DNA from: Setaria digitata
Lineage: Eukaryota > Nematoda > Chromadorea > Rhabditida > Setariidae
Reading direction: 5' to 3'
DNA length: 64,000 nucleotides
Assembly (NCBI GenBank): GCA_003640385.1
Contig: RCAB01000254.1
Span: 27,367 to 91,366 of the forward strand
The translations under genes were made by a program, and so were the position numbers. The first letter of the stretch is position 1, and each line of letters opens with the position of its first letter. Below, piece by piece: positions 19,342-64,000 of this stretch. Under the pieces are notes generated by a model. The model was not told the origin of the DNA and searched no databases. It was given only the letters and a program-made list of their open reading frames with translations.

Positions 19342-21964
19342 TTGAAAGGAGTCGTTTTCCAATGTTATCGTATCTCTAAAAAATTATATGATTATTTTAT
19401 GAAACAAATGTTAAATTTGGCTCGTATAACAAAATATACAATTGTTAAAACAGTGCTACACAGGAGCATCATATTGAAAGATCTGCAGATCAGTACTACT
19501 GACAAATTAGACAACAGAAGTTGGATTTCTCGTTTTGGCTTGGAGGAGCACTAGTCTGTTCACATTTGGCAATTCATTGCTCTATTACAAAATTGCATGG
19601 AAATTTCGTTTAAGATTGGAATTTTCTCTATTTTCCATCAGTTATATACTGAATATAGTTGAATGGTGATTGGTATTGATGCAGCAGTGCAGTTGTACAT
19701 GTTATCGAAGCACAACAGGATCACTTCAGTTGAATTTAGAATGAGCAAAATATATGATCAGATATTTTCATTGGCGAAGCTGAAAACACTAAACTATAGA
19801 TTGAAGATGGATGTTGAATGAGATGGAGTAATTTCAGGGAAAAGTGTATGTGTGTGCTTGCGTGTGTACCTGCATAAATGTTTTTTACTAAATTCAAAAT
19901 TTTCAAAACAGTGCAGGTGATTCTGTCCTATTTAATCTTGTGTTAAGCCGTGAGTGTTGTAACAATTACTTTTTCTTTATTACTTTGAATTAAATGATAT
20001 TTTCTCGGTATAAGTGGTAAGATTTGAAGAAAAGAAAAGAAAAGAAAAGAAATATTTTAGAGGTTCATCCCTCCAAAAAGGAACAGGAAAAACGAAAACT
20101 AAGTAAGGGGTAAGCCAAAAAGTATGTGACATTTAATTTGTGATTATCATTGACATGTGCTGACGGGTTGCGATCGTGTGAACTGTGACCCGAAAGTAGT
20201 TATAATTACGATTTGTCTGTGAAAATTCTTTTTTTTTTTTTTGTTTTTTGATTTGTGGGTGAAATGGGAAGGAATTGTGTAATACTGCGCTGATTTTGTG
20301 AGATAAATAATGATAAAATAAATGAAGTGACTGGAGAAGGAAGGGTGATGTAAGAGGGGGAGAGAGAGAGGGGGGAGGAAGAAGAAGAAGGAGAGAGAGA
20401 GAGAGAGAAAGGTAGGAAATGGTAACGTTTCGTAATATTTTTATTATCATGTTATTTAATGATTTTCTCATGAGAAATATTTCAATTAAGAAAAAATAAA
20501 AAAGTAGAAAATTAGTGCTTTTTTTGTTAAATTTTGAAAAGTTTGTTTGAAATTCATTTGGTCAAATTAATGAATTTCTTTTGATTATTTTAAAATTTTT
20601 GATGTTGGTTTTTTTTTTTTTTTTTTTTTAATAAATTTTATTTAAGCTTGTGAATGAATGACTTTTCTGACGGAGGAAGTGCATAAGAAACGTAGAGTAA
20701 CACGGTTGACTTCTTCTCTTTCTCGAGAATTGATCATCTGGAAAATTCAGAGATAACCTAAAATGGTCAAAAAATAGGAGTAACTTGCATTCATGCAAAA
20801 AATTACATTTCCATTTTCAAAAAATTTGAGAAAAGGAGAGGAAGTGACTGTGGAAGTGAGTAAAGTTTAGTTTTATTTTCAAAATTCAAAAACTTTTTAG
20901 GATTTTTGACAAAGCTTATACGCTTTAAGCAGCTTCAGTTCTTTTGAACGGAAGCTCATTCATTTCGGTTTCTAAAAATCAGACCGCTCTCTCGCAGAAA
21001 AAAAAAGAAAAAAAAAAATAAAAAACCGCTAGTAGTTTGAAAGTTCATTTCAATTGATTAAAATTAAAAAAAAAAAAAAAAAAAAAATGAAGATTTCAAA
21101 TTAAAACGAAATTCATTCAATTTCAAACATTTCCTTTTTTTTTTCACAAAAAGGAAATGAAATAGTTAAAAATAATTAATTTCATTTAATTCGGAAATTC
21201 TCTCGGTAGTTCAGTCTATTGTTGATTTTTAAGGGGAGAAATAAGCCCTTAACACAACTGAAGCTGTCATTAAATAAAAAAATTTCTTTTTCTGTTTTCA
21301 AGTTGTTCATTGCGATCCTAAAATAATTACAAATTTTATTTTCAAATTTTCATATCGCAATTTAAAAGATTTTCGGTTTAAATTTCAGTAATTAATTTTT
21401 CTTTTCTTTAATTTTAGCAAATTGCTTACCCAACTAACTTCTTCAAAATTTAATAAATTTATTTTAGAATAGAGAACTTTTAATTGAATTAATAATTGGG
21501 ACACAAAAACACGAAGAAAAAAAAAAAAAAGAAGTAATTATTATCAACCAGAAATGCATACATACCGTTAAAATGTAACACTTTACAGGTGGGTCATTAT
21601 GGGGCGACAAGATGTCGCATTATTATTGGGACAATATTTAATTCATTCATGGGAAACGATTTCTTGAGAATGTAATCAGATCACACTCACTGCAATGTGA
21701 ACTTACCGACAAAAGTATTTATTTATGATTATTATTTGAAGCCAAGAAAATGAGCCAAAGATGTTTCCCATTTGCATATTTCTCTTATCAGTGATATTTA
21801 TCAGTTACAATATTTGTTCATTTATGAGTTCAAATAAGTATTTATATAAGTAAATAGATGAGCAGAAGAAGCATGTACAATGGCAATAATATTGTTTAGT
21901 TATTATTTAAAATAATTAGCCAAAGATAAACAGCAATATATGAAATTATATGAGAAATTTATAT

Positions 21965-22277
21965 AGAAATAATGATGTGAAATAAATAAAATCATTGGTC
22001 ATTTGCGAAATGAAAATTTTCTAGAAGTTAGAAAAAATATATATATATATATATTTTTAAAATATATATATATAATGAATTAAATGTTTACTCATGATTT
22101 TAAAATTTTCAAAATGAACAGGAAAAAGAAAGTGATGCCATGAAATGTGGATTAACAAATAGATAAATGAAAAATTGTATAGAAATTATGAAAATATGAT
22201 GATAATCAGAAATAATGGTGTGAAATAAATAAAATCATTGGTCATTTGCGAAATGAAAATTTTCTAGAAGTTAGAAA
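21965..22277. repeat. Two copies of a 70-bp direct repeat
   Basis: Positions 21965-22034 and 22208-22277 match except for one base early in the copy. An AT dinucleotide run follows the first copy. The 173 bases between them are not repeated. It looks like a local duplication rather than a known element. Confidence 0.8.
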
Positions 22278-23196
22278 TTTCTGGCTAGTATTTAAAAAAA
22301 ATTAATAAATAAGTAGGTGAAAAATCGAGGAAGAAAAAAAAAAAACGAATTCAATGATAATTATAAATGAAAAAAAAAAAATAGAGGACAAGCGAGAATA
22401 ATTAACAATAATAATTATTGTTTATTAATCAGTATTTATGAAAATTCGTCTTCTCCTCTTTCTTTTTTCCTAAATTTTGAATTGAAAGTTTAGAAAATTT
22501 TAATAAAGAACTAAATTTGAAATTTTTCAAAAAATGTATAAATGTGAAAAATAATTGAAAAAAAAAATGCAGAAGCAGAAATTGCATCAATTTTTTTGTC
22601 TTATAAATCTTGCTAATTCAATTTAATTTTAAAAAATTTGCAAAAGTTTTTTTTTGAAACAGTTTAGTTTAGCATACTGTATATATACATATAAAGCAAC
22701 TTAATATTATGCTATATTTTATTACATTTTAGCACAAGATTATTTAAAAAAAAAAAAAAATAGAATTGTAATTTGAAGAATTTCCAAAAAAAAAAAAGAA
22801 AAAATTAGGCTTTAAATACTTTTTTTTTTTATTAAGAAAAAATATAAATAATAAAAGTAGGTAAAATTCATGACATTAACTTCCAAGTTCGGTAATTTTT
22901 CATTTGTCAATTTCTAGAATTATTAAGAAAAACAAAAAAAGAATAATTAAATGCAAGAAGAAATGAAACATTTTCGACATTTTCTTGGTAAAATAATATG
23001 CGAATTTTATTGTAAATGCATGTTCCCATGAAATTGAAACTTGCAAATTTGGAAGAAAGAAAAAAAAAAAATAACTAATTTTTTTTTTTTGTATTCTTTT
23101 CAGCGAACTTATATCAATTCATTTCCTTTCGTAATTATTTGCACATTTAAATGTGTGAAGTATTTTTCTGTGTTTGGCTAGAATAAATTAAACTGC

Positions 23197-23236
<40 letters not shown>
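23197..23236. repeat. GA microsatellite
   Basis: An interrupted (GA)n tract of about 40 bases on the plus strand. Similar tracts at 27803-27842, 62407-62440, 62838-62872 and 63911-63946 show this class is common in the region. Confidence 0.85.
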
Positions 23237-23238
<2 letters not shown>

Positions 23239-24925
23239 AAAAAATTCCAACTTATTAATGTTTTAAATTTATCAATTAAAATATATTTTTATATTTTTTA
23301 AAATTCTAAAAAACTTTTTCATGTCCACTTTTGGCTTCTCTTCCTAAATGTTTCAAATGATAAATTTAAAGCATTTTTAGCATCATCGTCAATAAAGATA
23401 AAAAAAAACGTTTTTTTAAATCAAATAATACTATTAATTAACAAAAGGTAAAGATGATTTCAATTCATTTATATTTATTACAAAGGAATTTGAAGCACTT
23501 TTTGACCTCAAAAAATTTATTTGGAAAAGGAAAAAAAAAGGAATTTCAAAAAAAAAAAAGAAAAACTTTTTCATTGTGTGAAAAATGTTGCGAGCAAAAT
23601 TTATTAAATGACTCTATTTCATATTTTTATCGCTAAAAATGTTTTTATTTAATTATTCAAATATCTCTTTTTTTTTTGACAGTTAATAATTTTTCATGCA
23701 TTTTAATTTACTTAATTTACTATCTGATAAGCAATGAATGATGAATATTAATAACTGATGGATAACATTTTTTGATGAGTGATAATGGATGATAATTACT
23801 GATAAGTGTTAAGCATTGATAATATTTCTTAAAGACTAAAATCTTCCATCCATATTATCAGTAACATCCTTCTTACTATCATTATCACTAAAAAACATTT
23901 TTTCTTCTACCTTTTTTTTTTTTTTTTTTTTTTTAATTATGTTCCCAGAATTAAGATGATGAGAATCTCTGATAGTCTTTTGATGATAATCTGACGGTAC
24001 ATTTCTCCTTTGCGATGATAATCTGATGGTACTTTTTCCATCCGTTTACAATGAGAATCTGATGATACGTTTTCATCTTCATTTTTTTTTTTTTTTTTTC
24101 CTTCCTTTCTTTTTTCTTTTCTTTTTTTTTTACGATGCGAAATCTGATGATATTGCTTTGAGGAAAGTTTAAAAGTAATAAAAATTTAATAATAATAATT
24201 ATTTTTCATATATAGTAGTACAAAAATAATATTTTAGTTTGCTTTTATTTTACACTTTTAAAAATAAATATGTATTTAAACAGTTGCAAAATTATTAAAA
24301 TAGAAACTTCCAAAGCATTTATGTGTTTGTATATTTTCATAAATAAGCATAACTGACAATACTGCATCGAATAAAAAATTTTACCAAATTATAATAATTA
24401 TTATTTCTCATATATTATTGCAGTGCTTAATTTTCATTTCATTTTTTTGTGTTAAAAAAAAAAAAAAAAAAAATAATAATAATAATAATGAGCAAACAAA
24501 ATAAAATAAAAAAGTAAACAAACAGTAGCAAAAAAAAAATTATCAAATTGCTAGTGCAGTGTAGAAGCTTACAAAACATTGCATGTTTGCATAATTATTT
24601 GTCTAATTCCATAAATAATTATGAAATATATTCATCGGCGCCAGTCTAGAATAAACTTCTCGGATATGAAGAAGGAAGAAAAGAAAACGATGGAAAAAGT
24701 AGGGATTATCCTATAAATCCATAAGGAGGATAGATGAAAACTATCTATACTCATTCATTAATCATAAGCAAATCGTATAACACAATCATTTTTTTTTTTT
24801 TTTTCTTTTTCAAATATAAATTATTTCATTTATATTTAAAAATTTTCATCTCTTCTTCCTATCCTTCTTTTTTTCTTCTTTTTGGATTAATTAGCAAAAT
24901 AATAAGATAGGAGAAATTATGAAGA

Positions 24926-25244
24926 TGATAAGAATCTCTGATAGTAAGTTTTGTGTGTGTGTGTGTGTGCATGTGTGTGCTTAAAATTTCCTTTTTCTTG
25001 TCTTTCACCTAATTAGCAAAATAATTAATTAGCAAAGTGAGGTGGAAGAAATTAATTGTGTTAGTGAAAGTGAACATAAAATAATTTTTGATAAGGAATC
25101 TCTGATAATAAGTTTTGTGTGTGTGTGTGTATGCTTAAAATTTCCTTTTTCATGTTTTTCACTTAATTAGCAAAATAATTAATTAGCAAAGTGAGGTGGA
25201 AGAAATTAATTGTGTTAGTGAAAGTGAACGTAAAATAATTTTTT
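24926..25244. repeat. Tandem duplication of an about 160-bp unit
   Basis: Units 24926-25088 and 25089-25244 share an opening TGATAAG.AATCTCTGATA, a GT microsatellite, and a long closing block that is almost identical. They differ by a few substitutions and in GT-run length, so this is real divergence and not an assembly overlap. Confidence 0.85.
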
Positions 25245-27370
25245 CTTTATTTAAAACATATAGTAAGTTGTTTGAAAATTTTAAAAAGAAAATGCTCCTA
25301 AAATTGATAAAAATAAGCATACAACTAACTGTTTAAAATTTAAAATTAAATGAAATTTTTATGGTATTAAAAGTTTTTTTTTTTTGTTTTATCATATAAC
25401 TATAATTAGATAGTTGTATTAATTTTGGCTCTAATAAATTGAATTTAATTGAGAAATGAAATTCGAACGAATATCAATCATTTAGTATGATGTTCCAATC
25501 ATCAATGATAAGATTTTTGCACTTATTTTGATCTTAATTCCAATATTACCGTAGCATAAAATAATATTCATTATTTTATTAAAAGTTTTGTGAAAGAAAA
25601 AAAAAACCTTTTAAAAGCAATAAAATAAATTAAAAACGTTTTTTTTGATAATCTTCGTTATTTAATTATATATTTATTAATAATGAAAATGATTTAAAAA
25701 GATGATAAATATTACACATTTAGTAGCTTTTTCGAAAAAAAAAAGAAAAAATAAATTAGCCAAAGTAAAATTTAATTAGACAATTTGTCAATAATCACAC
25801 ATTGAGAAGTATGTTTTTTTTCTCTTCGTCTCTTTTTTTTTTTTTTTTTTTTTAAATCAGTAATTACAAATGAATAAACTAATTGCGATTAATATCAATA
25901 AGTAATTAAGCTAATTTTTGAAAAACTCACCTTTCTATGTTGTTTAATTCATTCATATATCTTTTGACAATTAAAAAAGAATCTAATTTCTTTACATAAC
26001 TCTAATTTTTTTCCTTTTTTTTTTTTGGAATTAAAATTTTTCGAAAAAAAAAATGCTAAAAGATGAATGGAATGGGAAACTATTATTTAAATAAATCATT
26101 TATTCAAATTGACAGCTATGCAATTTAATTAAATGATTAAATTTGAATAAAAATTTAAAATAGTTTAAAGGAATTTTTGAAGGTTATTAAGCGATCTGTG
26201 CTCATTAGTTGATAGCAATACAGGAACAATTAACACATAAGCAATTAATTGGTTTGGGAAAATTGCTGTTGACATTCGTGTCAACAGCAATTCAAACCAT
26301 TAGCTATCCATCACATGGTTAGATTGGTCAACTTGCATTTAGTTCAATTTATTTTATCAAAATTTCAATGATACAAATTTTCATTCAAATTCTTATCATA
26401 TCTCATTATCATAACTAATCATTTTGCTATCACAATTGAACTTTTGCTTGTTTTATTTTCTGCTCGGCGCAAAAATTGTAAGTGAGAAGTTTAGCAAAAT
26501 CACAATGAAACTTTTTGTTACCTTCATTTCTTTTCTTTTATTTCTGTATCTTTTTTTTTTTCAGGTCTTATTCTATTTTATTTTTATTTTTTACCAAGCC
26601 TAATCATTCTATTATTATAGTTAAAATTTTTCACTTTTTAATACAACTAATGAAAAAGATCGCGGTGAATATTTTAAAAATTGTTTAAGAAGGTTAGTTA
26701 AAAAAAAAAATTTATCAGAAAAAAAAAAAAAACTAAAAATCTTTTTGCATCATTAAATTTTAAAAATTAAATCATAAAATTGAAACTTTTATTTTTTGCT
26801 AACGAAGTTCACTAAAAAAAAAAACCTGCATAAATAGTACAATACTTACTGATAATTATATTAAATTTTTGAAAAGTGCAATTTCAATTATTAAAATTTT
26901 CATTTTACTATGATTACATTTTACAGAAGAAGTATTTAGCGATATTTATCCCTTCTAACCAAGATATCACTAAATCTTCATGTATCGCAAAATTTTTATC
27001 AGTTATTTGCTTGAACTGTTATCTATTATCATAATTTGAACTTCAGCAAAATAAAATAATTATATTTCAAAAAATTTTAAGAAATAAATTTTCCTTGAGC
27101 TCTATCAATTTGTTCGAGTTTGAAAGTTTCCCATTTTGAGAACTCTCTAAATTAATCTTTAATTGTCATTTATATTGTTGTATTTGTCCATTATACGATC
27201 TACAATTCAGTATTTATTTGCTTAGTTGCTAGCATTCATTTATGCTCTATTTGGAAATAGTTTAATTTCTCTACAAATTTAAATTTGAAATTAAAATAAT
27301 CCAATTTAATGTTAAATTCATTTCTTACAGATTTTGAAATTCCAAACTAAAATCATCCAACGAATCAATC

Positions 27371-34893: not shown

Positions 34894-36848
34894 GTTAGTT
34901 AATTTGTTCCCTTTTTTTTTATTATTTTTTTTCGTTTTCACTTTTCTGTTCTGTTTACTTTTTTTTTTTCGCTTCTTTTAAGTGATATGATAATGAAGCA
35001 GTGATCATTTGAACTTTATCATAGTTGCATAAGTTTAAGTTAAAAAAAAAAAAAAATTTTCTTATCCATTCATAACACAGTTTTTATTTTCTTTCCAAAA
35101 AAAAATTTACTTAAATTTTTTCCATCTATCTATCTAATTGCTTTAAGCGTAGACTATTTTTTTTTTTTCTACAACTAATTTTGGATACGAAATAATTTTT
35201 AAAATAAAACTTATTTAAATTTTGGAAAGAAAAACAAGGAAGGAGGAAGATGGATATATTGTATAAATGAGTGAAATTGAAAATTAAATAAATAAATAAA
35301 AATAAAGACAAAATTATGAATAAATTAGAGAAAAGAAATTAATTTTTATTCTTTGAAAAACTGTCAGATAAAGTAAGCGATTAATAATTTTTGCATGTGG
35401 AAATATTTTATTAAAGTTTTCCCTTCACATTCCAAATCTTTTTATCAGTAAATTTTATCTTAACGCATAATTAACAAAAAAAAAAAACACATCATCCGTA
35501 TCATTGTTGATATTAATTGCTATCTTTCCTAATTATGCAGATGTTATCATTTTCTATCCACACTGTTGCAATCAATTTTTCAAATATAATTACTGTTATT
35601 ATTAACCTGAAAGATTTCGAACTTTCTTTTTTTTTTCCTTTTTAGAATAGCTCGCATTTTTCGGTTATATGCAAAAAAAGAATTTTTTTTTTCGTTTTCC
35701 TTTTAAAAATTAAAAGAAAAAAACAAAGAGAAAACTAATGTCATTAGAATTAATAATAACTTAAACAGCAGTAATTCCATTCTAAATGCTTGCAACCATT
35801 TTATCGCCTGATAAAAAAAAAAAAAAAAAAAAGTTTTCTAAATTTCAAATACTAATGCTAATGAGCATAATGTAGCTCGTTTTTTTTTTTTTTTATTTAA
35901 CAATAAGAATAATTGGATTTAGTGATAAGCAAAAATTTTGAGAGATTTTTCAACTTAATAATAGTGGTATGATTATTTAACGTATTATTATTTTAGTTTA
36001 ATTATTCTATTATTTTGTTTTAATTATTTAAACTATTTTGCCTAAAAATATATTGCCTTATCTAATTATCAGAACGCTAATTAATCATATGAATATTTAA
36101 CGTAATAACGTAAAAATGCGTTTATTAGTACAAAATAATGAAGGCTTATTGCAATTTAGTTGTTTTTATTTTTTCTATTAATTATTATTTTAATTTATTC
36201 TTTTTTTCTTTCCTTTTTTTTTTTCTTTTTATTGTTGTCAGTTTGCATATAGAATGATAAGTTTACTTAAATTCTCTGGAATTTATAGTATAAATTTAAT
36301 ATTGATAATTACAAATCATAAGATTGATAATTTTGAGTTGATTTTTAAGTTTTGAAAGCTTTATTTATTATCAAAAATACATTAATCACTAATTCATGTA
36401 TTTTTGATGATCGGAAACTCAAAAAAAAGGATAAATTTTTTCTTTTTTTAATTTTCAGGTCGTTGTAATGTCGTATCATCTTGTCGTAACGGTGGATATT
36501 GTATGCAAATTTCACCAAATGTCCACAAGTGCATGTGAGTTTTACAAGTGGAAAAAAAAAGAATTTTCTTTTAAAAAATTTTTTGTAAAAAATTCATTTT
36601 GAGAAAACAAGCAAGCCATTTTGTAAATTTTTAAGATTTCCAAAAATTATCCTCTTTTTCTGTTCAATTATTTTAACTTTATAATTTTTCAGTTGATCTT
36701 ATTTTGAAATTTTTTTTTTCTTTACTCCTTTTATACTTTTTCAAATAATAATTTTTCAAAAGAAGAAATAGATTTTAAACAATTTAATAGACAAAAAAAA
36801 AAAGTGCCTATAAAAGGTTTTCGGTAATTTTTATAAAATAAAAGAGAC

Positions 36849-39800: not shown

Positions 39801-42264
39801 GAAATGAAGTGTATTGGAGGGGAAAATTGAGAAACACCAGGTGAGAACTTGTAATTCATTTAGAATTAATTACCTCAAAAAGGTACACCCTCATATATGT
39901 GTGTGTGTGACATGTGACATTTAAATTTCATTTTTAATTTTTTTTTTTTTTTTTTTTATAAAAGGGAAAGAAGAGATAATTTATTTTGAAGATGCAAAAA
40001 ATAAAAAAAAAAACAAATAATAGAAGTATTTTTGATTTTTCTATTCATTTCGAGATATTTTCCACGTATCTAACGTCTATTCGTGAATTTAAATAGAAAA
40101 ATTGAATTTCATGGAAATTTAGTTATCAAATTTTTGTTCTTTTCCATAGGTTATAGGTCATTACAAGGTTATATTATCATCATAAACAGGTCGTATAATA
40201 ACGAATTTATATGACCATTTACGATAAACGAAGTTTTTCCTTCTCATTTCATATCTTTTTTCCCTTATCCTAACATTAAATTAATAAATTAAATTTAGTA
40301 AAATACTTAATTAAAATGTATTTAAACAGGTTGCGTACTTTTGAAACTATTTTTTTTTTTTTTTTTTGAATTTTTAGATTTTCTAGGTAACAGACAGTAA
40401 CATTGTCTGTTTACCGATGAATTATTTGACCTGTTTACCGAGGAATTATTTGCATATTATGGATATTTTATGTTATTTACTTGTTTTTTTTTTTTCCCTC
40501 TTCAAGTTGCATAATAATAATATTACACAATTGATAATGATATACAACTGTATCATTATCATAATCGTAATATGTGTAGCACCAGTCATGTCTGGTGAAA
40601 GATTTCGATTTCTAGATAAAGCTTAATTTTTCTTCACCAGATCAAATCAGGGCAGGAATCTTTACGCTTACCCAAAATATTTCTACTCTATTTTATGGGA
40701 TAGTATCATTTATAATTATTTCTTTCTTTTGCTTCTTCTCTATCACTAAAATTATCAAATTTTTTCTTTTTTTTTTTCATATTTTTTAAAATCATAGAAT
40801 GTAAAGGTTGAGAAAAATTACATGGAAAGAATTAAAAAGATCAGAGAAAAGGAAGGAGAAAAAGAAAGGGGCAAAAGTAATATCCAGACATATATTTTTT
40901 TGGATAAATATAAAATTCACTAAATTTATATGATATTGTTTTTTTTTTTTTTTTTTTTTTTTCTACTCAATAAATCATGCTGGACAGATTTAATTTGTAA
41001 AATTGCTTCATTTACATTGATCATTTTACCCATAATTGAGGTAATATTTTTTAAAGCAATTTAGCATGTAAGAAGAAAAGCTGTAAATATCTATGCTATA
41101 AGATGGGAAATAGGAAATATTTTTCGTTTTAAAATTTGTTTAGCTTGAAAAGTTTAAAAAAAAAAAAAAAAAAGAATGTTATCATTATATCATTGATCGG
41201 AAATGATATAAATGTTACTTTTTTTTTTTTACCAAACAATAAATGTTTTTGAAAAAAGCCAACCGCAAAAAAAAAAAAAAAAGAGAAAATACTATGAATA
41301 TATCCAAAAATTTATAATTCGTACTAGAGAAAAATTTGATATTTTTATTTGCATTAATTAATTTGCTGCTATTGCTACTGTTATTTATCAGTTGGAAAAG
41401 AAATATATTCATGCTAAAATTTATTAATAAGTCACTGATGATAAATTTTACTGCTTTCTCAAATTTTTACCCATAATTTTTATTGATCAAATTTTATCAA
41501 TATTTGTTTGAAATATTTCAATACTAGTGAAGCTATAATATCTATATTATTATTATTATTGTATTACTTACTACTTTTAGTATCAAAAAAATAAATAATG
41601 ATAATGAATGATAAAACATTTGTCATTAATAAGATATTAATAATGCATATTTCACTGATATGCTGATATGATTATCTTTTAACAACAGATGTACGAATGG
41701 ATTTATGGGTGATCGATGTGAGGAACGATGTGATTGTTTGAATGGTGGTAAATGTCTTCGAAAAGGATCTCTTTCAATATGTGTTTGTCCTATTGGTATG
41801 TTTTAAATTTTTTTTTATTTCAGTCTAATAAGAACATTTGTTGTTTTTATTTTGTTTTTGGTAAAAAAAAAAAAAGAGGAAAATACATAATTAGTTATAA
41901 AATTTATTAATATTGCAAGTAACTTTTTTTTTAATTCATTTCTATAAATGTAATAGAATTTAGAATTCGACCATTATTATTGTGTACTTGCTATTGTTTG
42001 TTGTTAAAACAAAAGAAAAAAAAAATTATACTTTTTTTTTGTTATAAATCTAATAAGGAAGCTTTTTTTCTGTTCTTCTTAGATTTATAATTCAGTTATT
42101 AATTATTTAGATTTTCTGAAATCTTTTTTTCCTTTTTTAGCTTTCAGATGATAATTTTCTCAAATTATTTAACAGTTCTTTTTCTACAATTTTCGAAAAA
42201 AAAAAAAAAAAACAACATTCCTTTGATAATTTTAAAAATATTTAATTTTAGAAGAAAGAGAAGG

Positions 42265-46302: not shown

Positions 46303-49300
46303 AAGGGAGGAAGGAGAGAGTTCAATGAAACGAAATGTGAAATTTTTACTCAGATGCTAACATCAAGCCGAGAAATAGAAAAAAGAAAAAAACTTACTGC
46401 TATAATATCTCAATGGCATTTTTACAATTAACTTCAGTTAATTAGTCTTTCTTTCTTTCTTTCCCTCCATCTCTCTCTCTGTCTCTTGCTCTCTTTGTTT
46501 ATCATTTGCTTTTAAAATGAATGAAAATGTTTTAAAATGATGAAAAAAAAAAAAAAAAAGAGGCGAGAGAAATGAAGGAATAGATTTAGAGAAATAAGAA
46601 TTAATAGTTTAAAGAAATAGAAAGACGAAAAGAGTACAAAAGGCCGAATGAAGGTGGCATGGCGGTGGTACGAGCTTGGCCAGATTATATGAATAAAATG
46701 GCTTTGTTGAAGAGAAAAAAAAAAAGAAAAATAGGCAATATCTAAGACGTGAGGTAGAATGTGAGACGATAGAAGGGAAGTTTAGACCAACGGAACGTAC
46801 GAAATGGCTTTGTTGAAAAAAAAAAAAAAGAAGAAAGAAATTTGTAAGTGATCAATTTGCATTTGTATAGGAGAAAAAAAATGGCATCAGAGATGAGATA
46901 TTTTTGCTAAAATATATCTGTATGTATTTAGTGTGTTCAATTTTTTGGCACTTATATTGTTCATTTAAAATATAAAAAGGCAAAGAAGCATTTTAAAAGA
47001 GAGAGAGAGGGGGAGAGAGAGAGGGAGAGAGGGAGAGAAGAGAAAAAAAGAGAAGAAACCGACAACTTATAGCTTATACATATATAAATTATAAATGTAT
47101 TCAATGGCGCCTTCTATGAAAAGAGAAATGAATGACGCAAAATGGTACGATGGAAGAGGAGAGGTGAAAAGGGAATGGATGGAAGAATTGAGGAAAGTAT
47201 ATGGTAAATGAAAATTAAAGAAAATAGTGTGCTAGTTGTTGGTGTAGGATGAAGAGGAGAGATAAAATTGTGATAAGAGATGTGATTAGCAACAATAGAA
47301 TGATAAGCAGAGAGGAAAAGAATGACAGAAATCTGGATGAAAGGTGTGGATTTTGATAAATTCTCTAATAGTGATGAAGAGAGAGAGAAAATTCGAGATG
47401 AACAAGATGAAGGGATTCAGAAGATGATAAAAGTAGGAGGAGAGGAAGGAGGAACGATTCAGGATGAAAACAGGATGAAGGGATTGAGAAGGAGCAGGGA
47501 GAGAAGGGAGGAAGGATTCAGGATGAAGGGATTGAGAAGGAGTGAAAGGTGTATGTGAAATTTATTTCAGGTATATGTCAAATCTAATCAGAATAAAAAT
47601 GCATAAATCATGCAAATAAATGATATTGAAAATTAAAATACATTTGAGATAAATTATAAAATCAATTCATAAGAATATTTAATAAATTAGTATAATTTTT
47701 TTGTATAGTAAACTTTAATTAAACGAATTCAATTGTATATAATATAACTATTAAATTGATCATATATATATATTAGTTAAAGTTTACTATACAAAAAAAT
47801 TATAAAAAAAAATTAATATATATATATATATTAATTTTTTTTGAATTAAACATGTGGAAGAATGTTTTTCTTAGAAATTTTATTTTTCTTTTTTTTTTTA
47901 ATTCATAAATTATATTCAATAAAATGATTAATGAATGAAAAAGACATAATTAATGAATTATGTGTAAATTATTTTGAAAAATAATAATCAGGTTTTAACG
48001 GAACAATTTGTGAATATCAGCAACGAAGCAAATGTGATGAAGCACCATGTATACATGGTCGATGTATTCTTACCAAATCGTTGGATATGTTTCGATGTGA
48101 ATGTCATCATGGATTTACAGGTTTGTAAATTTTTCTTATTGTTTTTTTTTTCTTTTTTCAAATTTAAATTTAAATAAAAACGTCTAAAAGTGTAGCGTAA
48201 AAGAAACGATTTGATGTAAAATGAAGAAAAAAAAAAAAACGAATAAAGAATAGAAATTGTAAAAGATTTTGTCAAAAACTAATTCTTTTTTTTTTCATTT
48301 ATTGTTTTATTGAAAAAAGAACAGAAAAAAAAAAAAGTGATTATATTAGATATTTCACGATTGATGTAGATTTCCGATACTTACATCTTTCTCCCGATAC
48401 CCTGATGAGATTCACCCGCGATTTCATATCAACAGGGGGTCACTTTCTTGCTTAGATATATCTAAACTTCTCCAGAATATACGGTATAATTTTTCCCATC
48501 TTTTCATAGCAAAACTATTTTCTTACCTTTTTTGTTTTTCTACCTTTCCCATTTAGAAAAAGAAATTTTTTTTTTTTTTTTGATTAAATTGTATCCAAAC
48601 AAAAAAAAAGAAAGAAAACAAAATGTTTTCTCATGTCTTATTAGCTTAGCAATTATTTGCCACGATAATAAGTAAACTAAGAACAAGAAGAACTTGTTGT
48701 TTGTCTTTTTTTCTTTTTTCATTTTCAAAGCATTTAATTATAAACATTTATAAAAGATTTTTATTCACATCGTTCATGAAAATTGTATCTTTCTCATCGT
48801 TGCGGTAAAATGAGCAAATATTTGCTTCCAATAAATTTTCTTTTTTTTTTTTTTCTGAAATTTTAATTTCCTTAAATTGAGTTTTTTTTTTTTTTTTTCT
48901 TTCTTCTGTTTCCATATAATTAAGAAATAGTAAAAAAAAAAAAAAAATTTACTTTATTCCAATTTTCCATTATTTTGTTAATAATGGATTAAATTTAATT
49001 TTTTAAATTTTAGCAAAAATTTTACTGTTAAAAAAGAGGAAAAATAAAAAATGTACGTGATCAATCATTCTATTTATAATTTCTAATAATAATTTTTCTT
49101 TTTTTTGTTTCATTTTGACTTCTTTGTTTTATGATAATAATAATAATTTGCTTGACTTTGTTATCTGATCTCTCTTTGTTAGTTCAAATTATACTCTCTC
49201 TCTCTCTCTACTAAATGATAATTGTTCAGAGAAGAGGAAAAAAATGGGAAAAAAAAAAATGACAACCAATATTCTTATCAAATAACAGGCATAAATAAAT

Positions 49301-53500: not shown

Positions 53501-56500
53501 AAAAAAACAAAGATAAAATAAGCGAGAGAAAAAAAAAATGAAGAGTGTATATTTTAAATATCTATCAAAAATTTTTCATTTTATTTCACGTCTAAAACTT
53601 TAAACAAAAACGAAAGAAAAAAAAAACAGGAGAAAAAAGTGACAAATTATAAATAATAAACAGTGAGAAGTTACGATTAATTTATTTTCGATTTATTTTT
53701 TGTTTTGCTTTTCTTTCATCTAAAATTGCAAAATTTTAAGCTGAAATGTAGCTTTCATATTGAAAAAAAAAAAAAATTTTTTTTTTTTTGAAAACCGAAA
53801 ATTCATCTCCATTTTTTTTTTTTTTTTTTTTGCTTTTTCTTTACAGGTGAACGATGTGATGAGCGAAATTACTGTGAAGGTAATCCATGTAAAAATAATG
53901 GCTTATGCATATCAGCATCCGGAGGTTATCGTTGTGAATGTCCAGAAGGATTTCACGGAAACAAATGTGAATTGGACATTAATGAATGTCATTCGAATCC
54001 ATGCATTCGTGGCAAATGTATCAATGAGGTATGTTTAATTATAAACATCAAAATTTTCCATATTATATAATTTTTTCTTTCTTTTTTTTTTTTTGACTCA
54101 AACGTTTAATAGTTAAGATGGATCTGAGAGGTGCAGTTAAATTATTAAATAAGCTAGTGAATGGGCATTTAAATCAGACAAATTCAAATGAGCCAAAATG
54201 AGACAGAATCAAATAAACCGATGGATATAAACATAGGATGAAAGCTAATAAATTTACTGAATAAGAAAAAGCAAAATAATATCTAATTAACAAATTTTAT
54301 ATGCTTTTTTTTCATTCTATTTATTTTTGAAAAGCTAATATTTAATTCATTTCCGTCAAAATATAGGGGGGGAACAAAAAAGCAGATTAGCAATAAAGGT
54401 GAATGGTGAATACATATACAAAAATATCCAGAAATTGCATGAAATATTAAAAAAAAAAAAGAAAAAAAAAATAGAAAAAAGTGCTTAGAAATTAATGTCA
54501 TTCGTTAATGTTTATATTATTACATTTTATCCACCTTATTATTTTTATTAATTAATTTTAATGAATGATTAATTTGTTATAGTTTGGTTCTTATCGTTGC
54601 GAATGTCCACATGATTTTACCGGTCGTAATTGTGAAACATTTTCACTTAATATTAACTCTGATCCGTGTTCCATGTCACCGTGTCATAACAGTGCCAAAT
54701 GTTACACGTATCGAGAGAAGTACTACTCATGTGAATGTCGTCCCGGTATATATTTCTGTTACTAATTTTTTTTTTTTTTTTTTTTTAGCTCAATTTTATT
54801 CTAAATTTTTTTTTTTTTTTTTTTGAAATTTTCAAACTTTAATCATCAAAAAAAAAAAAGAAAAGTCGCATATTTCAATTTAAATACTACATTATTAGAA
54901 AATGTGATGAAAAATTTGTTTTTGCTTTTTTTTTTTCTCCTTTTTTATCTTTCAAAAAAAAAGACAATTCTCTTTAAAATTTGAAATTAATTTTAGAGAA
55001 AAATAATTGCTTTACACCATTTCAAATGGTACATTCTCTTAGTATTATAATGGCTCTTTCTTATCCTTCGAATATTTTATGGCTCTAACTTCTTTTTTTT
55101 CCCGTTGATTTATGTAGTGTGAAAATGAAGTTTGACAGAAAACATTTTTTTTGTCTTTTTTTTTTTCTTTTTTGGAATTTTGTCATATTATTTTCAAAAA
55201 GTTTTCAATTTATGTTCTTCAAAAGAAATTAGTCAAATAAAAGTACTGAAGTTAATCAAAAAATTTAAATGATTAGCATAAGTATTAATTATTTAAGTAA
55301 AATGGGAACAAAGTTGATGATAAAAATAAGTAATCAGTGATTGATAATTTAACAATAGAAGTAAGTAAAAATATGTAAACCTATCTAAAATTATACACTC
55401 CAAGAATGTAATTAGGCAGACTATTTAAATTGCCAAAAAAAAAAAATAAGTGTTATAACTAGTGTGCTAATATTTATGAAAGAATTAATTGTTAGTAAAG
55501 GAATTTGCTCTTAATTTCTGATGAAAGAATTCATGGATAATTTTTTTCTTATTATATTTTATTTATTTTTATATTGTATCCAAATCCCGTATATAATTTC
55601 ATGAACATTTATCATTAAAAGTAGCCCTAAAATTAAATGATAATTTGAAATTATTAAAATTATATTTTATTTAAAATATATTATGCCTAATTTCGTAGGT
55701 GATAATAATATTTTTAGAAAATATTTCAGGTTTTACAGGAAGACATTGTGAAGTGAATGTGGATGATTGTTTCGAAAATGCCTGTATGAATGGTGGTACT
55801 TGTGTTGATCGTGAACAAGGTTATGAATGTAAATGTCCACCATTTTATACAGGTTTATCATTTTTATCAGTTTTTATCAAGCCAATAATATCAATTTGCA
55901 ATTATTAAACATTTGTTTTGAGCAATTTCAAGAATCAAAAAAAAATTATATTTTAGTTTAAAATAAAAGAAAAAATACAACAATAATGTAGCTTTAGAAA
56001 AAAACACTTATATTATTAAATAATGTGCAAAATAAATAAATAAAACAAATAAAATATAATAAATTGGAAAGAATAAATTTGCCAGTGAAAAATATTGTAA
56101 ATTTGTTGAAAGAAAATTTTGAAGGAATTTGCGAATTTGTTCTTTTATAAATTATATTTTTTTTTTTTTTTTTTTTCTTTTGAAATTCCATAAGAGAGAG
56201 CATGCAGTGTGTAATATTATTCATCGTATGGTACTGAAATAGAAATCATGATTAATGCAAATATTTTGATTAATGTCACAAAAAGTTTCAATTTTTTTCT
56301 TTTTTTTTATTTTTTGCCGATTGAATTATAAGAGTATCGTCTCATTTTTTAAATCTCAAAATTTTCTTTTTGTTTTTACTATTTCACTTTCAGAAATTTT
56401 GTGCTTCAAAAAGTTTAATTTAATTGAGATTTGAGATTTTGTTGGAATTATACTTTTAATTTAAAACATTAAAACTTTTAGTGAAGATAAAATCAATTTG

Positions 56501-59500
56501 CTTCCTGTTATTATTTTTTTCCCTATCAAAAATGATAATAATGGAAATTTTGAAATTGATATTTTTTCATATTTGCTACCCTATAATCAATATTTATGCT
56601 TTTGCATAAATTAATTCAATTTAAATTAACGAAATGTTAACTTTTATCACTATTTCAGCTGTAAATAATCTCATTTACTTTTACCTTTATCAATTCAGTT
56701 GATATCATCGTTATCGAGTTGAAATTTTAATGAATGAAAAATTTATTGAAATAGTAAAAAGTTAAAAAAGCAGTAACAGTGTGAGTTGTTGATTGTTTCC
56801 TTATCTAATATTCTCTCTTTTATTATCTTATTTATTTACAATGAAAAATAATGATAATGATGATTGTGATAATATACAGCACCGCGGGAACCATGTGATA
56901 CTTAATATACGACACCGCGAGAACAGAAATGAAGGTCAGGATGAATTAGGTGGGGAATAGAGTTACCGGAGAAGGAAGAAGGAAAAATTAAAGAATTTCC
57001 TAATGATAATAGATTAATAGTAAAGTAAGAAAATTCTCACACCATACTCTTAAAACATCTGCCATTTATTGGGTATGACAGATTGATATGTATTTAACAA
57101 TCTAACAACCATTTTCTTTTTCTGAATAATTTTCAATTCTGAAAAAGATAATTTTTGATATGTATCAAAAAGAAGAAAGGAAAAATTTTTCTTTTTATTT
57201 GTTCCAAAATTTGAAATCATTTTATGTTACGAAATTAAATGATGATATAAATGAACTTTTCTTTTTTTTTCTTTTTTCATCGCATCAAATATCATTATTT
57301 CATTTTGTTGATTTTATTATATTTAATGCATTCATTTCATTTCATTCATTCTTTTATTGTCATTGTTCAAAAATGATTTTTATTCAAATTTTAATTCTTT
57401 TTTTTTCTTCTTCAGAAGGAAATGATACTAAACTTTTCTACTTTATCGGCTTTCTTTTTCCGTTTTCTTTTTGTTCAACCGAAAGGTACTCCGAAAATTT
57501 AATCAACAGTAGTAATATATATATTTATTTATTTACACTTAAAATTCCAATTGAAAAAAATTTTTTTCCAATTTAAATTATGTGTTAAATAATGTGGGGA
57601 AAAAAAAAGAAAAAGAAAATGTAAAAATGTAAGAAGGAAAGGTAACGATAGAAATAATGGTAATTAAATGAGGAGGTAGAATTGAGGAAGAAGAAAATGA
57701 TTTAAAATAAATTGAATTTGTAAATGGAAGAAAAAAAAAAGAAATCACACTTCACTTAAAAGTTATTTAAACATTGCCTTGTACAAAAAAAAAATAATAA
57801 TAATAATAAATTAAAAAAAATTAAATTTTGACAAAAAAAAAAAAATTTGATTTTCCTATTTCATCCAATAATTTTGGCGTACATGTTCATTTGGTGGAAT
57901 TTAAAAATACAATGTGAAAAATAAAGGAGGAAGGGAAGAAATTTGAATGGATAGGAAAAAATTTTTGCAGGAAATTTATTTAAATTCGAAAACTTAATTA
58001 ATCTCAATTAATTATTCCATGACAAAAATTAACCATATAAGTTAAGATAATACAGGTCAAATATTGCATTAATTTAGTTAATATAAAAACAAAAAAAAAA
58101 AAAGCCTAAATTCCTTTAATAGTGATTAATAGGATGTTAAATTCATTAGCATATTTTAAAGGGAGAGGCGGAGAATCTGAAGGCAAATTTGCATCTACTA
58201 ACAGATTAGCAAAATTTGAAGTAATTTAAATGAAAATCTGAAATCATTTATCATCAATTAGGAATGGATTAAGCTATTCTGNGATTCTGAAGTTATTCAT
58301 ATTACAATAAATGATTGCTTGGCGGACAGATAGTAATTATATTATGCAATGAAATGAAATAGAATATGGAAATTTATCTAACTAACTAATTAATTAATTA
58401 ANTATTCTGAAGTTATTCATACTACAATAAATGATTGCTTGGCGGACAGATAGTAATTATATTATGAAATGAAATGAAATAGAATATGGAAATTTATCTA
58501 ACTAACTAATTAATTAATTAATTAATTAATGAAGATAAATAATGATGAAATATATTTTTAGGTCGTTTCTGTGAAGAGGATATTGATGAATGTGAATTAG
58601 GTTTACATCAATGCAAAAATGGTGCAACATGTTTTAATAAAAAAGAAGGCTATCATTGTGTTTGCGTAAACGGTTGGGAAGGTATTCATTGCGAGATAAA
58701 TCATGATGATTGCGTGGATGCGCTTTGTGAAGCGGGTAGCACGTGCGTTGATCATCTTGCTAAGTATACGTGTGAATGTCCAACAGGTCGTATCGGTATG
58801 TGTTATTATCATTTCGATGATTATCGATGTATCATTTTTTTATATGTAATTTTAGGAAAAAAAATAATAATAATAATAATATAATCAAAAAGAAAAAACA
58901 AAAAAATTATTTGAATTTTTTTTTTTTTTTTTTCTACAGGTTTATTTTGTCATATCGAAGATCCATGCTTGTCAAATCCGTGTCGAGTTGGTTCCATATG
59001 TGAACCGGATACATCAAGCGGAAAATATACCTGTGAATGTCCAAAAGGATACACTGGTGATGACTGCTCCGATGATATTAATGAATGTAATCAGGTAAGC
59101 TTACTCAAACTTCTATATGATAAAATATTTTTTTTTTTTTAATCGATATTCTAGAAAATAAGGAAATTTAAAATGGAACGAATGAATGAATAGTCGGAAG
59201 ATCATACCATTATTGGTACTGAAATTCTGCAATGTATTAAAGCAAGAAAAAATGTGTGGTAGGAATATTTCGTTATTACTTCAGGGTGATGTTGTTTGTT
59301 ATAACGGTGGTACTTGCGTAAATACACCTGGATCATTTCATTGTGAATGCCCACCTGGTTACACGGATTGGCATTGTCAAACTCACGTGAATCAATGCTC
59401 AACTAATCCATGTCTTAATTCTGGTACATGTTTGGATTATGGGACACGTTTCAAATGTGTTTGCATGTCTGGTTAGTTTTAACATATAAATAATTTGTGA

Positions 59501-61867
59501 ATAATTTATTAAGAAAAAAAAAAAAAGATAATTAAAGATTATCTTTTTATATATATTAGTTATTTGACATTCCCTTTTTTTTTTTTTTTAAATATTATTA
59601 TTTTTTTTCAGGTTTTCACGGAGAACGATGTGAGCTTCTTTGTCCACCTGGTTATGAAGGTGAAAATTGTGAACGTCGACAGTTTATAGAATGTAGCTTA
59701 ACGGATTGCTTAAATGGTGGTGTTTGTTCGAAAGGTTCGTGTCGTTGTCCACCGGGATATACCGGTGATCGTTGTGAGAAGAAATCAGATCCATGCAAAT
59801 ATCATACCTGTCCACAGAATGCCATTTGTATACCAACCAATAATGATGCTGCATACAAATGCGAATGCAAGCTAGGCTTCTATGGACATGATTGCAAGCA
59901 AGAAGTACGTCCTAATTATATTGCAACTTTCTGAAGTTATAAAAAGATAAAATTTAAAAGTTTTAATTTTCTAAAAAAAAAAAAAAGATTACAACAAAAG
60001 AGGAAAACATATTTTATTTATTTTTGTTTATACATTATACATTAGAAATTGATACATTCTCTCAGATGAATGAATGTGCTTCAAATCCATGCCAACATGG
60101 CGGCGTTTGTACGGATCACGTAAACGGATATGTTTGTTCATGTAGTACCGGTTATACCGGTGATCAGTGTCAGATAAATATCGATGATTGTATCAATCAA
60201 CCTTGTTTGCATGGTGGTACCTGTATCGATGGTATCAATTCCTATTCATGTCATTGTGCTTTACCGTATGATGGTGATCGATGCCAATACGAGTAAATCA
60301 TTTCTATTTCTTTATTAAAAAATTTTCGTTTTATTTATTTTGTATCTTCTATCACTTGATAGCGATTAATTACCAATATACTTTGAGTAAATCAATTTGA
60401 TCTCAGTTTAATTAATTGAATAACTTTTCTTTGCGAAAGTTTTTACTTAATTAAAAATTTAAAAAAAAAAAGATTTTTTTCTTCGGCAAATACTTTTCTG
60501 TAAAGTAAGTTTTCTTTTCTTTTTCTTTATCCAGCCAATATGATGACAAAGTTAAACATGTTTATCCCTTTTTTTTTTACTTATCAGTTTTTTACTACTT
60601 TGCTTGATAGACGCAATTTTTTTTCACTTATTAAACAGAATATCATGTGCTATAACTTTTCTTAACTAACTTTATTTTCCATCTAAGTCATTCATTGAAA
60701 CTGTCATCTTTTAGATTAGATCCATGTCGAACAAATCGCTGTGAAAATGGTGCAAATTGTAAGCCAACTTCAACTTATCGAAATTATACCTGCGCTTGCA
60801 CCAACGGTTTTGANCTAACTTTAAGTCATTCATTGAAACTGTCATCTTTTAGATTAGATCCATGTCGAACAAATCGCTGTGAAAATGGTGCAAATTGTAA
60901 GCCAACTTCAACTTATCGAAATTATACCTGCGCTTGCACCAACGGTTTTGATGGATACTACTGTGATACTGTAAGTTATCATCTTTATATCTATAAATTA
61001 AATTTGGTAACCGTTTTATACCTTATCATATAAATTTTAAATTAAAAGTATACTTCGAATTTTAGCACATCGACAGAAAAATTCAATTTAGATTTAATTA
61101 TTCAATTAATACATATTTATATATTTAGGATATTGATGAATGCGCTACAAAAAATCCTTGTTTAAATGGTGGTAGTTGCGCAAATATATTTGGTTCATAT
61201 CAGTGTCGTTGCCCTGATGGATACACCGGTAGAGATTGTGAGAATGATCGGGATGATTGCTTACCAAGTAGTTTTGTTGAATTCTTTTAATTCCGATTTT
61301 TTTTTTTTTTGTTTTTTAATTCCAAGTAGATGCTTTACTTTTTCTTTCTTTTTTTTTTTTTATTGCTGTAATTTCTAACGATATTTACTGTAGTCAATTT
61401 TGGAAATATATTTTTTAAAACAATTAATTTAAGATAGGACAGAAAAAAAGGAAAGAAGTAAAAGAAAATTTGGAATGAATGAAACTCTTCTCTTTCTTAT
61501 TATTTCATTATAATTTTTAAAAAATTTTGTGCTATTTCTTTATCTAACAGATAATATTTTAAAGTGAAAAAAAAAATCACTAGCAAATTTTTGGAAATTT
61601 TTCAAAATGAAGATTCTAGAAACTTCAACTCTTAACAGATCCGTGTCTAAATGGCGGTAATTGCGTGGACGAATTAAACGGTTATCATTGCGAATGTTTA
61701 GCGGGTTTTACGGGGCGTCAATGTGCGACAAATATCAATGAATGCGAATCGTCACCATGCGAGAATGGTGCATCATGTATCGATCACGTAAACGGTTTTG
61801 AATGCGTTTGTCGTCGTGGTTTCAGTGGTACTTTCTGTCAAACGAACGATGATGACTGTCAATCAGG
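34809..61867 (+). CDS. Notch receptor (lin-12/glp-1 type), 5' part, 15 exons
   Basis: Exons: 34809-34893, 36459-36534, 41689-41795, 47992-48120, 53847-54028, 54583-54745, 55730-55852, 58562-58795, 58940-59094, 59285-59471, 59612-59904, 60066-60292, 60853-60970, 61129-61267 and 61639-61867. They join in frame for about 815 residues; most introns are phase 1, as in EGF-repeat genes. A hydrophobic N-terminus precedes about 20 six-Cys EGF modules, many with the Asp/Asn-x-Asp/Asn-Glu/Asp-Cys calcium motif. Modules 7-12 follow canonical Notch EGF5-10 in order, with the diagnostic CVNGWEG and GRIGLFC turns. Modules 16-20 follow EGF21-25 (CALPYDGDRC, then DPC). Between them, EGF11-19 are reduced. Notch is a surface receptor for DSL ligands; its released intracellular part acts with CSL (LAG-1) in transcription. 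LNR, transmembrane and ankyrin regions lie beyond the window. Exon 15 ends in phase 2 inside the next EGF. Exon 13 is duplicated by an assembly error. Introns 2-4 exceed 5 kb. Confidence 0.88.
38349..38470. repeat. Tandem pair of diverged 60-bp units
   Basis: Units 38349-38410 and 38411-38470 both begin CACATGG.AGGG.TAAGGTTAA and share CATTCCGGATCC followed by ATGACTT. Substitutions and small indels separate them, so the duplication is old enough to be real. Confidence 0.85.
39301..39567. repeat. 133-bp direct duplication around an N (probable assembly artefact)
   Basis: 39301-39433 and 39435-39567 are the same sequence with one N at 39434. Same pattern as at 3812. Confidence 0.85.
42271..42320. 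repeat. GA microsatellite, about 50 bp
   Basis: A near-pure (GA)n run in Notch intron 3. It creates an Arg/Glu-alternating open frame that is not a protein. Confidence 0.9.
43512..44000. repeat. 43-bp minisatellite, 11 full units plus a partial one
   Basis: Units start every 43 bases (43512, 43555, 43598 and so on to 43985). Each unit runs TTATTTCACCGCGGTATCAT, then CTTAGCATTCTCTTTTTGAG, then CAG. The first two units carry substitutions, the middle ones appear identical, and the last breaks off after CACCGCG. A degenerate copy lies near 44223. The unit has no open frame that survives repetition, since 43 is not a multiple of three. It lies in Notch intron 3. Confidence 0.95.
45040..45190. 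repeat. Imperfect trinucleotide repeat (AAT/GAT/CAA)
   Basis: About 150 bases of AAT units with GAT, AGT and CAA variants. It yields a long poly-Leu or poly-Ile reading on the minus strand that is not a gene. Confidence 0.85.
45860..45902. repeat. AT microsatellite
   Basis: A pure (AT)n run of about 42 bases in Notch intron 3. Other AT runs are at 13560-13658, 22029-22073, 49524-49543 and 53248-53270. Confidence 0.9.
46243..46310. repeat. GA microsatellite, about 60 bp
   Basis: Long (GA)n run ending in GGA-rich variants, in Notch intron 3. Together with 45354-45385 and 47000-47040 it forms a purine-rich zone. Confidence 0.9.
47456..47543. repeat. Purine-rich duplicated block
   Basis: The segment GATTCAGGATGAA...GGGATTGAGAAGGAG occurs twice (about 47456-47495 and 47514-47543) inside a strand-biased purine tract from about 47300 to 47560. 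It opens a 78-residue charged frame (47322-47558) that I take to be fortuitous. Confidence 0.7.
47691..47804. repeat. Inverted repeat with 30-bp arms
   Basis: The arm at 47691-47720 (TATAATTTTTTTGTATAGTA and onward) is the reverse complement of 47775-47804, with about one mismatch. The 54-base loop is AT-rich and a run of TA follows. It sits about 190 bases before Notch exon 4. It may be a miniature transposon remnant. Confidence 0.8.
50846..51067. promoter_or_regulatory. Three ETS-like CCGGAAAT sites in Notch intron 4
   Basis: ACCGGAAAT at 50846, GCCGGAAAT at 50935 and the reverse orientation ATTTCCGGT at 51059, with a weaker TTTCCGC near 50978. CCGGAA(A/G)T is the ETS-family consensus. Three in 222 bases is unusual for such AT-rich DNA. 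Function is inferred only. Confidence 0.3.
52550..52618. repeat. Inverted repeat with 21-bp arms
   Basis: 52550-52570 (AGTTTAACTGAAATTTTTAC and T) pairs with 52598-52618 with a single mismatch, leaving a 27-base loop. A transcript of intron 4 would form a stable hairpin here. Confidence 0.8.
58284..58520. repeat. Near-identical 118-bp duplication around an N (probable assembly artefact)
   Basis: 58284-58401 and 58403-58520 match with at least two single-base differences; one N lies between them (58402) and another at 58282. The differences suggest two haplotypes joined instead of merged. It lies in Notch intron 7, just before exon 8, and does not affect coding. Confidence 0.8.
60685..60951. 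repeat. Duplication around an N covering Notch exon 13 (probable assembly artefact)
   Basis: From about 60685 to 60813 and from about 60823 to 60951 the sequence is the same, with N at 60814. Each copy includes the exon 13 acceptor and most of the exon. Only the second copy reaches a proper donor (GTAAGT after 60970). Confidence 0.85.
60715..60813 (+). pseudogene. Truncated duplicate of Notch exon 13
   Basis: Reads the same EGF fragment as 60853-60951 (from LDPCRTNRCENG on) and stops at the N without a donor site. Including both copies would put two partial EGF modules in a row and break the module pattern. It should be dropped from the gene model. Confidence 0.75.
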
Positions 61868-62871: not shown

Positions 62872-64000
62872 GGCGAAAGGGGGAGTGAAATTGAGAATAA
62901 AAATTTTGGGAATAACAAGTTTTATAATAAAGGGAGAGAAGCTTGTATTGAAAAGTTTAAATAATTTTATCATAAAATTGATTATTTTTCTTTTGCTCAC
63001 ATTAATCATCACACAGGTTAAATTAATATTAGGTGCCTCGTATTAAATTAAAATTGTAATTATTATTTTAATTAAGATAAAATTCTTCTTGCAACAAAAA
63101 GATATCAAAAAAATTCCGAATACCATATTTCATTTGTCTTGAAAGAAATTTGAGAGCTCTTCGTATCGTCTTTTTTTTTTTTTTGTTTAGAATTAAGCAA
63201 AAAATTACAGTCAATTAGGCTATAAATAATGGTCTTTGAAAAGATTTAAATATTTTTATATTCTTAAAGCATGAAATTATTATTAAACATTAAGTTAATC
63301 TCCTGTATCTAAGTAGTATGAGAATGCTCCACATTATGTTCATTATGATGAAAGCTTTTTTTTTTTTTTTTCGTTTTATTTTCCTCTTGAAATTTAGATA
63401 AATAATTTACAGATGACACTTTCCTTATTGAATCTTTTAATTAGTAAATAGATTTCAATTTTCGTAATTATATGATGAATGATGCTTGAATGGTAAAACT
63501 TCACACGACCTTAGATTAGCAATTATCGAGAAGTATCAGTCAAGTATACTTAATAACTAAGAAGTATATACATATCTGAATGTAAAGATATTTTCACACA
63601 CACACACATACTTGAGAACTAGAAGTAAACTTTATGGTATATATATATCTATTTCATAGACTGTATGATAAGGTAAATAAACTTAAAAGTATTTTGTATA
63701 ATCAAACTTAATCGTTTCAATCTCTCTCTCTCCCTCCCTTCACACTCTTCTCCATTTTTCATCTCTCTAAATCCTATACATCTTACATATAGCTAGCTAG
63801 ATATTCTTCTTTCCTCTATACTTAAGATAAAATTCTCACATCATTGAGATTGCTAATATTTTGGTTCTATTTTCCTTTATTTAGTCTAAATAATATGGGA
63901 GAAGAAGGGGGNAGAGAGAGAGCGAGAGAGAGAGAGAGAGAGAGAGGGGGGGTAGAAAAAATTTTTGTGGACATTACAACATCTTAAAAATTTTTTCATT
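61868..64000 (+). other. Start of Notch intron 15, no further exon seen
   Basis: After the phase-2 donor at 61868 I find no further EGF exon up to the window end. The stretch holds GA tracts (62407-62440, 62838-62872, 63911-63946), a CA run near 63595 and an N at 63912. The rest of the receptor must lie to the right. Confidence 0.65.

Follow-up and report, generated by a model that had tools for sequence, protein, structure and literature searches.

A long-type Notch gene in Setaria digitata with the EGF11-12 pair in its usual place and a half-module behind it

Gene structure and assembly context

The window (the whole stretch of 64 kb that was analysed, bases 27367-91366 of contig C173 in an assembly of 75.6 Mb and 976 contigs) contains a plus-strand Notch gene beginning at or before 36459, of which 14 exons are listed in Table 1. 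All have AG/GT borders and fitting phases, and together they encode 786 residues with no stop. The best homologues of the gene are nematode Notches, which bears out the first-pass annotation in calling it a nematode Notch gene, and the tandem EGF modules in a recognisable EGF7-12 order place it in the Notch family. Base 64000 of the window is the end of the contig, and the remainder of the gene lies on contig C347, the break between the two falling inside one intron (bases 1-1054 on the C347 side). There, an exon at 1055-1223 (locus L009) finishes in phase the EGF26 begun in exon 15, and LNR, NOD, transmembrane and ankyrin exons follow beyond it.

The protein joined across both contigs has 1670 residues, no internal stop and, when split by cysteine pattern, 21 full EGF modules, a count that belongs to the joined model, as the join bridges a gap of unknown length in which further EGF exons could lie. 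PF00066 (LNR) and PF06816 (NOD) score above cut-off on C347 and are tied to the long Notch by phase and by full-length homologues, while the transmembrane segment and the ankyrin repeats were recognised by eye, the latter appearing also in the Pfam lists of the homologues. Among database matches the joined protein is closest to Acanthocheilonema viteae (89% identity, with 98% of the query covered), followed by Ascaris suum and Toxocara canis (64% each), which suggests a filarial worm related to Acanthocheilonema.

Single N bases stand in the window at 3812, 39434, 58282, 58402 and 60814. At 3812, 39434 and 60814 the two flanks have a repeat of 120 bases or more in common (120 bases being the limit of the search), and at 58402 one of 54 bases; such junctions are probably unmerged assembly overlaps. 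At 60814 an assembly duplication, starting at 60715, repeats most of the EGF22 exon, the intact copy of which is the one given in Table 1.

Table 1. Exons of the long Notch gene in the window (exon numbers are those of the first-pass annotation)
Exon content	Position	Strand	Basis or remark
First part of EGF1	36459..36534	+	AG-GT, phase fits following exon
End of EGF1, most of EGF2	41689..41795	+	
End of EGF2, most of EGF3	47992..48120	+	
End of EGF3, EGF4, start of EGF5	53847..54028	+	
End of EGF5, most of EGF6	54583..54745	+	
Exon 7: end of EGF6, most of EGF7	55730..55852	+	Register test
Exon 8: end of EGF7, EGF8, most of EGF9	58562..58795	+	Register test, 5UK5 alignment
Exon 9: end of EGF9, EGF10, start of EGF11 with calcium motif DINE	58940..59094	+	5UK5 alignment
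Exon 10: remaining EGF11, most of EGF12 (DSL-binding pair); EGF12 starts with HVNQ, not a calcium motif	59285..59471	+	
Exon 11: last residues of EGF12, lone hairpin CPPGYEGENC, short EGF, long-loop EGF	59612..59904	+	
Exon 12: EGF20 and EGF21	60066..60292	+	Register test, 9B3N alignment
Exon 13: EGF22, intact copy behind the duplication	60853..60970	+	Register test
Exon 14: EGF23, start of EGF24	61129..61267	+	Register test, 9B3N alignment
Exon 15: remaining EGF24, EGF25, start of EGF26	61639..61867	+	EGF26 completed on C347

A second, short Notch was found on the minus strand of contig C301, at about 21900-26850 (L007, L008). It comprises EGF8-12, the same half-module that is described below for the long gene, LNR repeats, a NOD match and ankyrin repeats; no sign of EGF1-7 emerged when some 38 kb upstream (C301 26800-65000) were scanned crudely for the cysteine pattern. 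In a tree built from the LNR-to-ankyrin region it groups with the spirurian long Notches (94/92, branch not starred, terminal branch long) and stands separate from the LIN-12/GLP-1 pair as well as from the short Notches of strongylids. The short Notch of Toxocara, whose branch is very long, fell among the outgroups and is hence left unplaced.

Elsewhere in the assembly, three DSL-domain matches were seen on C47, C170 and C45 (L013-L015), which probably represent Notch ligands of this worm. A lone LNR repeat at C132:12890-12991 (L004, L010) lies near a metalloprotease motif, HEIGHILGLWH, and this locus presumably resembles a pappalysin-type protease and not a Notch.

Register of the EGF array and the ligand-binding pair

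The six modules of exons 7-10 were scored against every six-module run of three vertebrate Notch1 proteins, one of which, from lamprey, is devoid of EGF1-6 and was used for block scores only, the other two serving for whole-order alignment as well. The block (modules 7-12) scored best at EGF7 in all three references (747, 735 and 732), with the runner-up registers at 537, 539 and 561. The first-pass annotation had read these exons as EGF5-10, a register for which the two references having EGF5 give only 470 and 458. When the order of the modules was permuted, one of the 720 orders, the real one, scored as high as observed in each of two references; the runners-up came close (736 vs 747 and 728 vs 735), and thus the permutation settles the register more than the exact order. 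Modules scored singly often match better elsewhere in the array, as is expected for repeats, and it is the blocks that carry the result. The register is weak for EGF1-6, for which block scoring pointed to EGF1 in one reference and to EGF17 in another, while whole-order alignment placed the first six modules at EGF1-6 in both usable references.

Comparison with solved structures gave the same numbering. Modules 8-12 align over 195 residues with no gap (E 1.6e-60) to the Notch1 chain of 5UK5, in which EGF8-12 are solved together with Jagged1; this chain, which we take to be rat Notch1, starts at module 8 of the reference used in the register test. Modules 11-12 also match EGF11-12 of 2VJ3. Further along, exons 12-15 and the first C347 exon score best when starting at EGF20 (892, 857 and 840 in the three references, the next registers giving 776, 739 and 738), and modules 15-19 align to EGF20-24 of human Notch1 with a single one-residue gap and E 8.1e-58 (9B3N, an entry named in PMC12979247). 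Exons 12-15, numbered EGF21-25 in the first-pass annotation, are thus EGF20-25 with EGF26 begun.

Alignment of the joined protein to Notch proteins shows the EGF11-12 pair to be encoded by the last part of exon 9 together with exon 10, in its normal place and with its normal spacing, so that the earlier count was two too low. Over this pair, 37 of 78 residues are identical to human. PMC5538765 lists five Notch1 ligand contact residues, plus Thr466, whose O-fucose adds to the interface. Among these positions, F436, L468, D469 and the O-fucose threonine T466 are kept, and I477 is changed to V and R448 to H. These residues were read from the window's own row, as human EGF11-12, when aligned locally to 30 nematode proteins, landed on other module pairs in many of them. 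Judging from the residues, the long Notch most likely binds DSL ligands through EGF11-12, as would any Notch.

The lone hairpin of exon 11

All three elements that the first-pass annotation had described in exon 11 are present, namely the end of a module (the orphan CPPGYEGENC), a very short EGF (CSLTDCLNGGVCSKGSCRC...) and an EGF with an extended loop. The exon replaces EGF13-19 directly behind the ligand-binding pair, and it is common to other nematodes, not unique to this worm. In an alignment of 18 sequences (MAFFT), the order of hairpin, short EGF and long-loop EGF was also found in A. viteae, Ascaris, Toxocara and the environmental sequence P0084, and in the A. viteae orthologue (P0001) EGF12 is directly followed by the hairpin. 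Trichinella has full modules where exon 11 sits, and the tail of its EGF13, CPPGFEGQFC, aligns on the half-module, with a similar stretch after it. The short and long-loop modules fall on EGF14 and EGF17 of one reference and on EGF14 and EGF15 of another by whole-order alignment, and exon 11 alone, compared by sequence with a structure library, finds EGFs of DLL1 and Notch1 in no specific register.

An orphan C-x7-9-C right after a module occurs in 50 of the 189 sequences having at least six modules. Twenty-eight of these carriers are the long Notch described here and nematode or nematode-like Notches, including six environmental ones as well as GLP-1 of C. elegans (P0228) and LIN-12 of C. remanei (P0215); visual inspection of the remaining 22, of which two are strongylid and 20 non-nematode, suggests broken gene models. 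The half-module stands directly behind a module placed as EGF12 in 27 of the 28, the exception being P0217, which begins mid-array and for which the placing script put the block elsewhere, the preceding module being called EGF12 by eye. A half-module behind EGF12 groups this gene with the chromadorean LIN-12/Notch proteins, although it is not universal among them: three Steinernema/Auanema sequences are devoid of it, and strongylids have an altered stretch or none. This distribution indicates that the half-module probably predates the split between Spirurina and Caenorhabditis and was later lost or altered more than once. An AlphaFold2 model of P0217, a Caenorhabditis-like homologue, is poor overall (mean pLDDT 60.8, pTM 0.37); within this weak whole model the half-module (residues 95-104, pLDDT 83 for 91-100 and 80 for 101-110) is predicted to have the strand spacing of the hairpin of the preceding module, as expected for a C-terminal EGF hairpin.

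Being odd and in the middle of the array, exon 11 had been taken by the first-pass annotation for a rebuilt ligand-binding site standing in place of a lost EGF11-12, with exons 7-10 as EGF5-10. This is extremely improbable in view of the block scores and the gap-free alignment to solved EGF8-12 given above, of the contact residues, which are located in exons 9-10 (exon 11 lies behind the pair), and of the same module order in A. viteae (P0001) and Ascaris (P0002). The related claim of a remodelled ligand-binding region survives in a milder form, in that the EGF12 calcium motif is gone (see below) and a full EGF13 is missing; the EGF11-12 pair itself is intact. Nor is it credible, in spite of single-N junctions with duplicated flanks near exon 11 (58402 and 60814), that the exon is an artefact of the assembly or of the gene model and that true EGF13-19 exons are missing. 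The stretch 58940-60292 is free of N, and the introns flanking exon 11, of 140 and 161 bases, have at most one and two cysteines in any open stretch; being so short and poor in cysteine, they leave no room for a hidden EGF exon beside it. Moreover, the independent genomes of Acanthocheilonema, Ascaris and Toxocara have the hairpin and both EGFs, and Caenorhabditis has the hairpin as well.

A different doubt concerns the source of the hairpin, which could derive from another EGF such as EGF19, given that CPPGxxGxxC is generic and the motif is too short for its source to be seen by sequence alone. Its position directly behind EGF12 in nearly all carriers and the alignment on the Trichinella EGF13 tail make such an origin possible but unlikely, and we regard the half-module as a probable remnant of EGF13.

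Calcium motif at EGF12 and comparison with known Notch receptors

The calcium-binding EGF motif was scored as a consensus match only ([DN]-x-[DN]-[EQ] ahead of the first cysteine). EGF11, with DINE, matches it, and EGF12, with HVNQ, fails at the first residue. We located EGF9-12 in 30 sequences, i.e., 25 chromadorean (24 proteins and the C301 gene, with P0084 counted as chromadorean by tree only), two from clade I nematodes and three from vertebrates, with placing margins of 20 (P0216), 28 (P0122) and up to 558. The EGF11 motif is present in all 30, and the EGF12 motif in both clade I and all three vertebrate sequences but in none of the 25 chromadorean ones, which are not independent of each other (eight are from Caenorhabditis, and there are paralogues). 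In a wider set of nematode and nematode-like sequences without clade I, 49 of 56 could be placed, the other seven having no four-module block, and the motif was found in 46 of the 49 at EGF11 and in none at EGF12, with poor placings for P0124 (margin 4), P0217 (wrong) and the Pristionchus rows (weak). Among non-nematode Notches, mostly vertebrate, 132 had a contiguous five-module block, of which 56 were set aside as unclear and 76 had a clear EGF8-12 block; the latter showed the motif in 75 cases at EGF11 and in 73 at EGF12. The EGF12 of 7ALJ, which we take to be Drosophila Notch, begins with NINE. The EGF8 motif, located by offset, is present in 17 of 24 chromadorean rows, and EGF12 is therefore not the sole changed site; at the level of the consensus, it is the only one that combines a complete loss with near-complete presence elsewhere. 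The HVNQ of EGF12 could still bind calcium weakly.

It is this absence of a calcium motif at EGF12 that deserves specialist attention. Neither it nor the half-module is mentioned for nematodes in the titles and abstract beginnings listed on nematode, filarial and Ascaris Notch, on LIN-12/GLP-1 EGFs and on Notch1 contacts, and both may still be in print. One tentative and rather doubtful scenario is that early chromadoreans lost the calcium site that stiffens EGF11-12 together with most of EGF13, the joint becoming calcium-independent and the pair gripping DSL ligands with a tuning unlike that in other animals. The lone hairpin, which many of them retain, would then serve behind the pair as a new hinge or cap.

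Overall, the gene is an ordinary long chromadorean Notch type. It very probably encodes a filarial receptor that has kept EGF1-12 and EGF20-26, has a hairpin and two divergent EGFs in place of EGF13-19, has dropped EGF27-36 and continues with three LNR repeats, NOD, transmembrane segment and ankyrin repeats, working as any Notch does. A DSL ligand would bind EGF11-12 and, by pulling, open the LNR region, after which the intracellular part would be released. The exon 11 stretch would act as a shortened spacer just behind the ligand-binding pair, and with no calcium motif at EGF12 and no more than a hairpin left of EGF13, packing would probably contribute more than calcium to holding the rod on both sides of EGF12. 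In human Notch, EGF20-27 form, according to PMC12979247, a rigid elongated region that lies between the ligand-binding part and the regulatory one and is important for optimal activation, and the kept EGF1-12 and EGF20-26 would fit a working receptor with a shortened spacer.

The closest relatives of this receptor are the long Notches of A. viteae (P0001), Ascaris suum (P0002, F1KQP1) and Toxocara canis (P0003), with which it shares the module order, the hairpin behind EGF12, the short and long-loop EGFs, EGF20-26 (by eye) and HVNQ before EGF12; unlike it, the database models P0001 and P0003 are without the first module or modules. Trichinella Notch (P0004) shares the EGF9-12 order but differs in having the EGF12 calcium motif, full modules in the place of exon 11 and 24 more EGF modules behind EGF12. 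Vertebrate Notch1 has the same register at EGF7-12 and EGF20-26 and most of the ligand contacts, and differs in its 36 EGFs and in the calcium motif at EGF12 and EGF13 (two references).

With Caenorhabditis LIN-12 and GLP-1 the gene shares the hairpin behind EGF12, followed by a short EGF, and the absence of an EGF12 calcium motif; L468-D469, kept here, correspond to A-H in GLP-1 of C. elegans and to L-H in LIN-12 of C. remanei. The first-pass annotation was right in considering it larger and nearer to the ancestral order than these two, as it has 21 EGF modules compared to 13 in C. elegans LIN-12 and 10 in GLP-1 (figures given in PMC6457397). The analysis removes the idea of a filarial Notch without its ligand-binding pair. 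The comparison bears on how far the C. elegans receptors can represent other Notches: with 21 EGFs and mostly canonical contacts, the long type described here makes a better bridge than LIN-12 or GLP-1 to the Notch of flies and humans.
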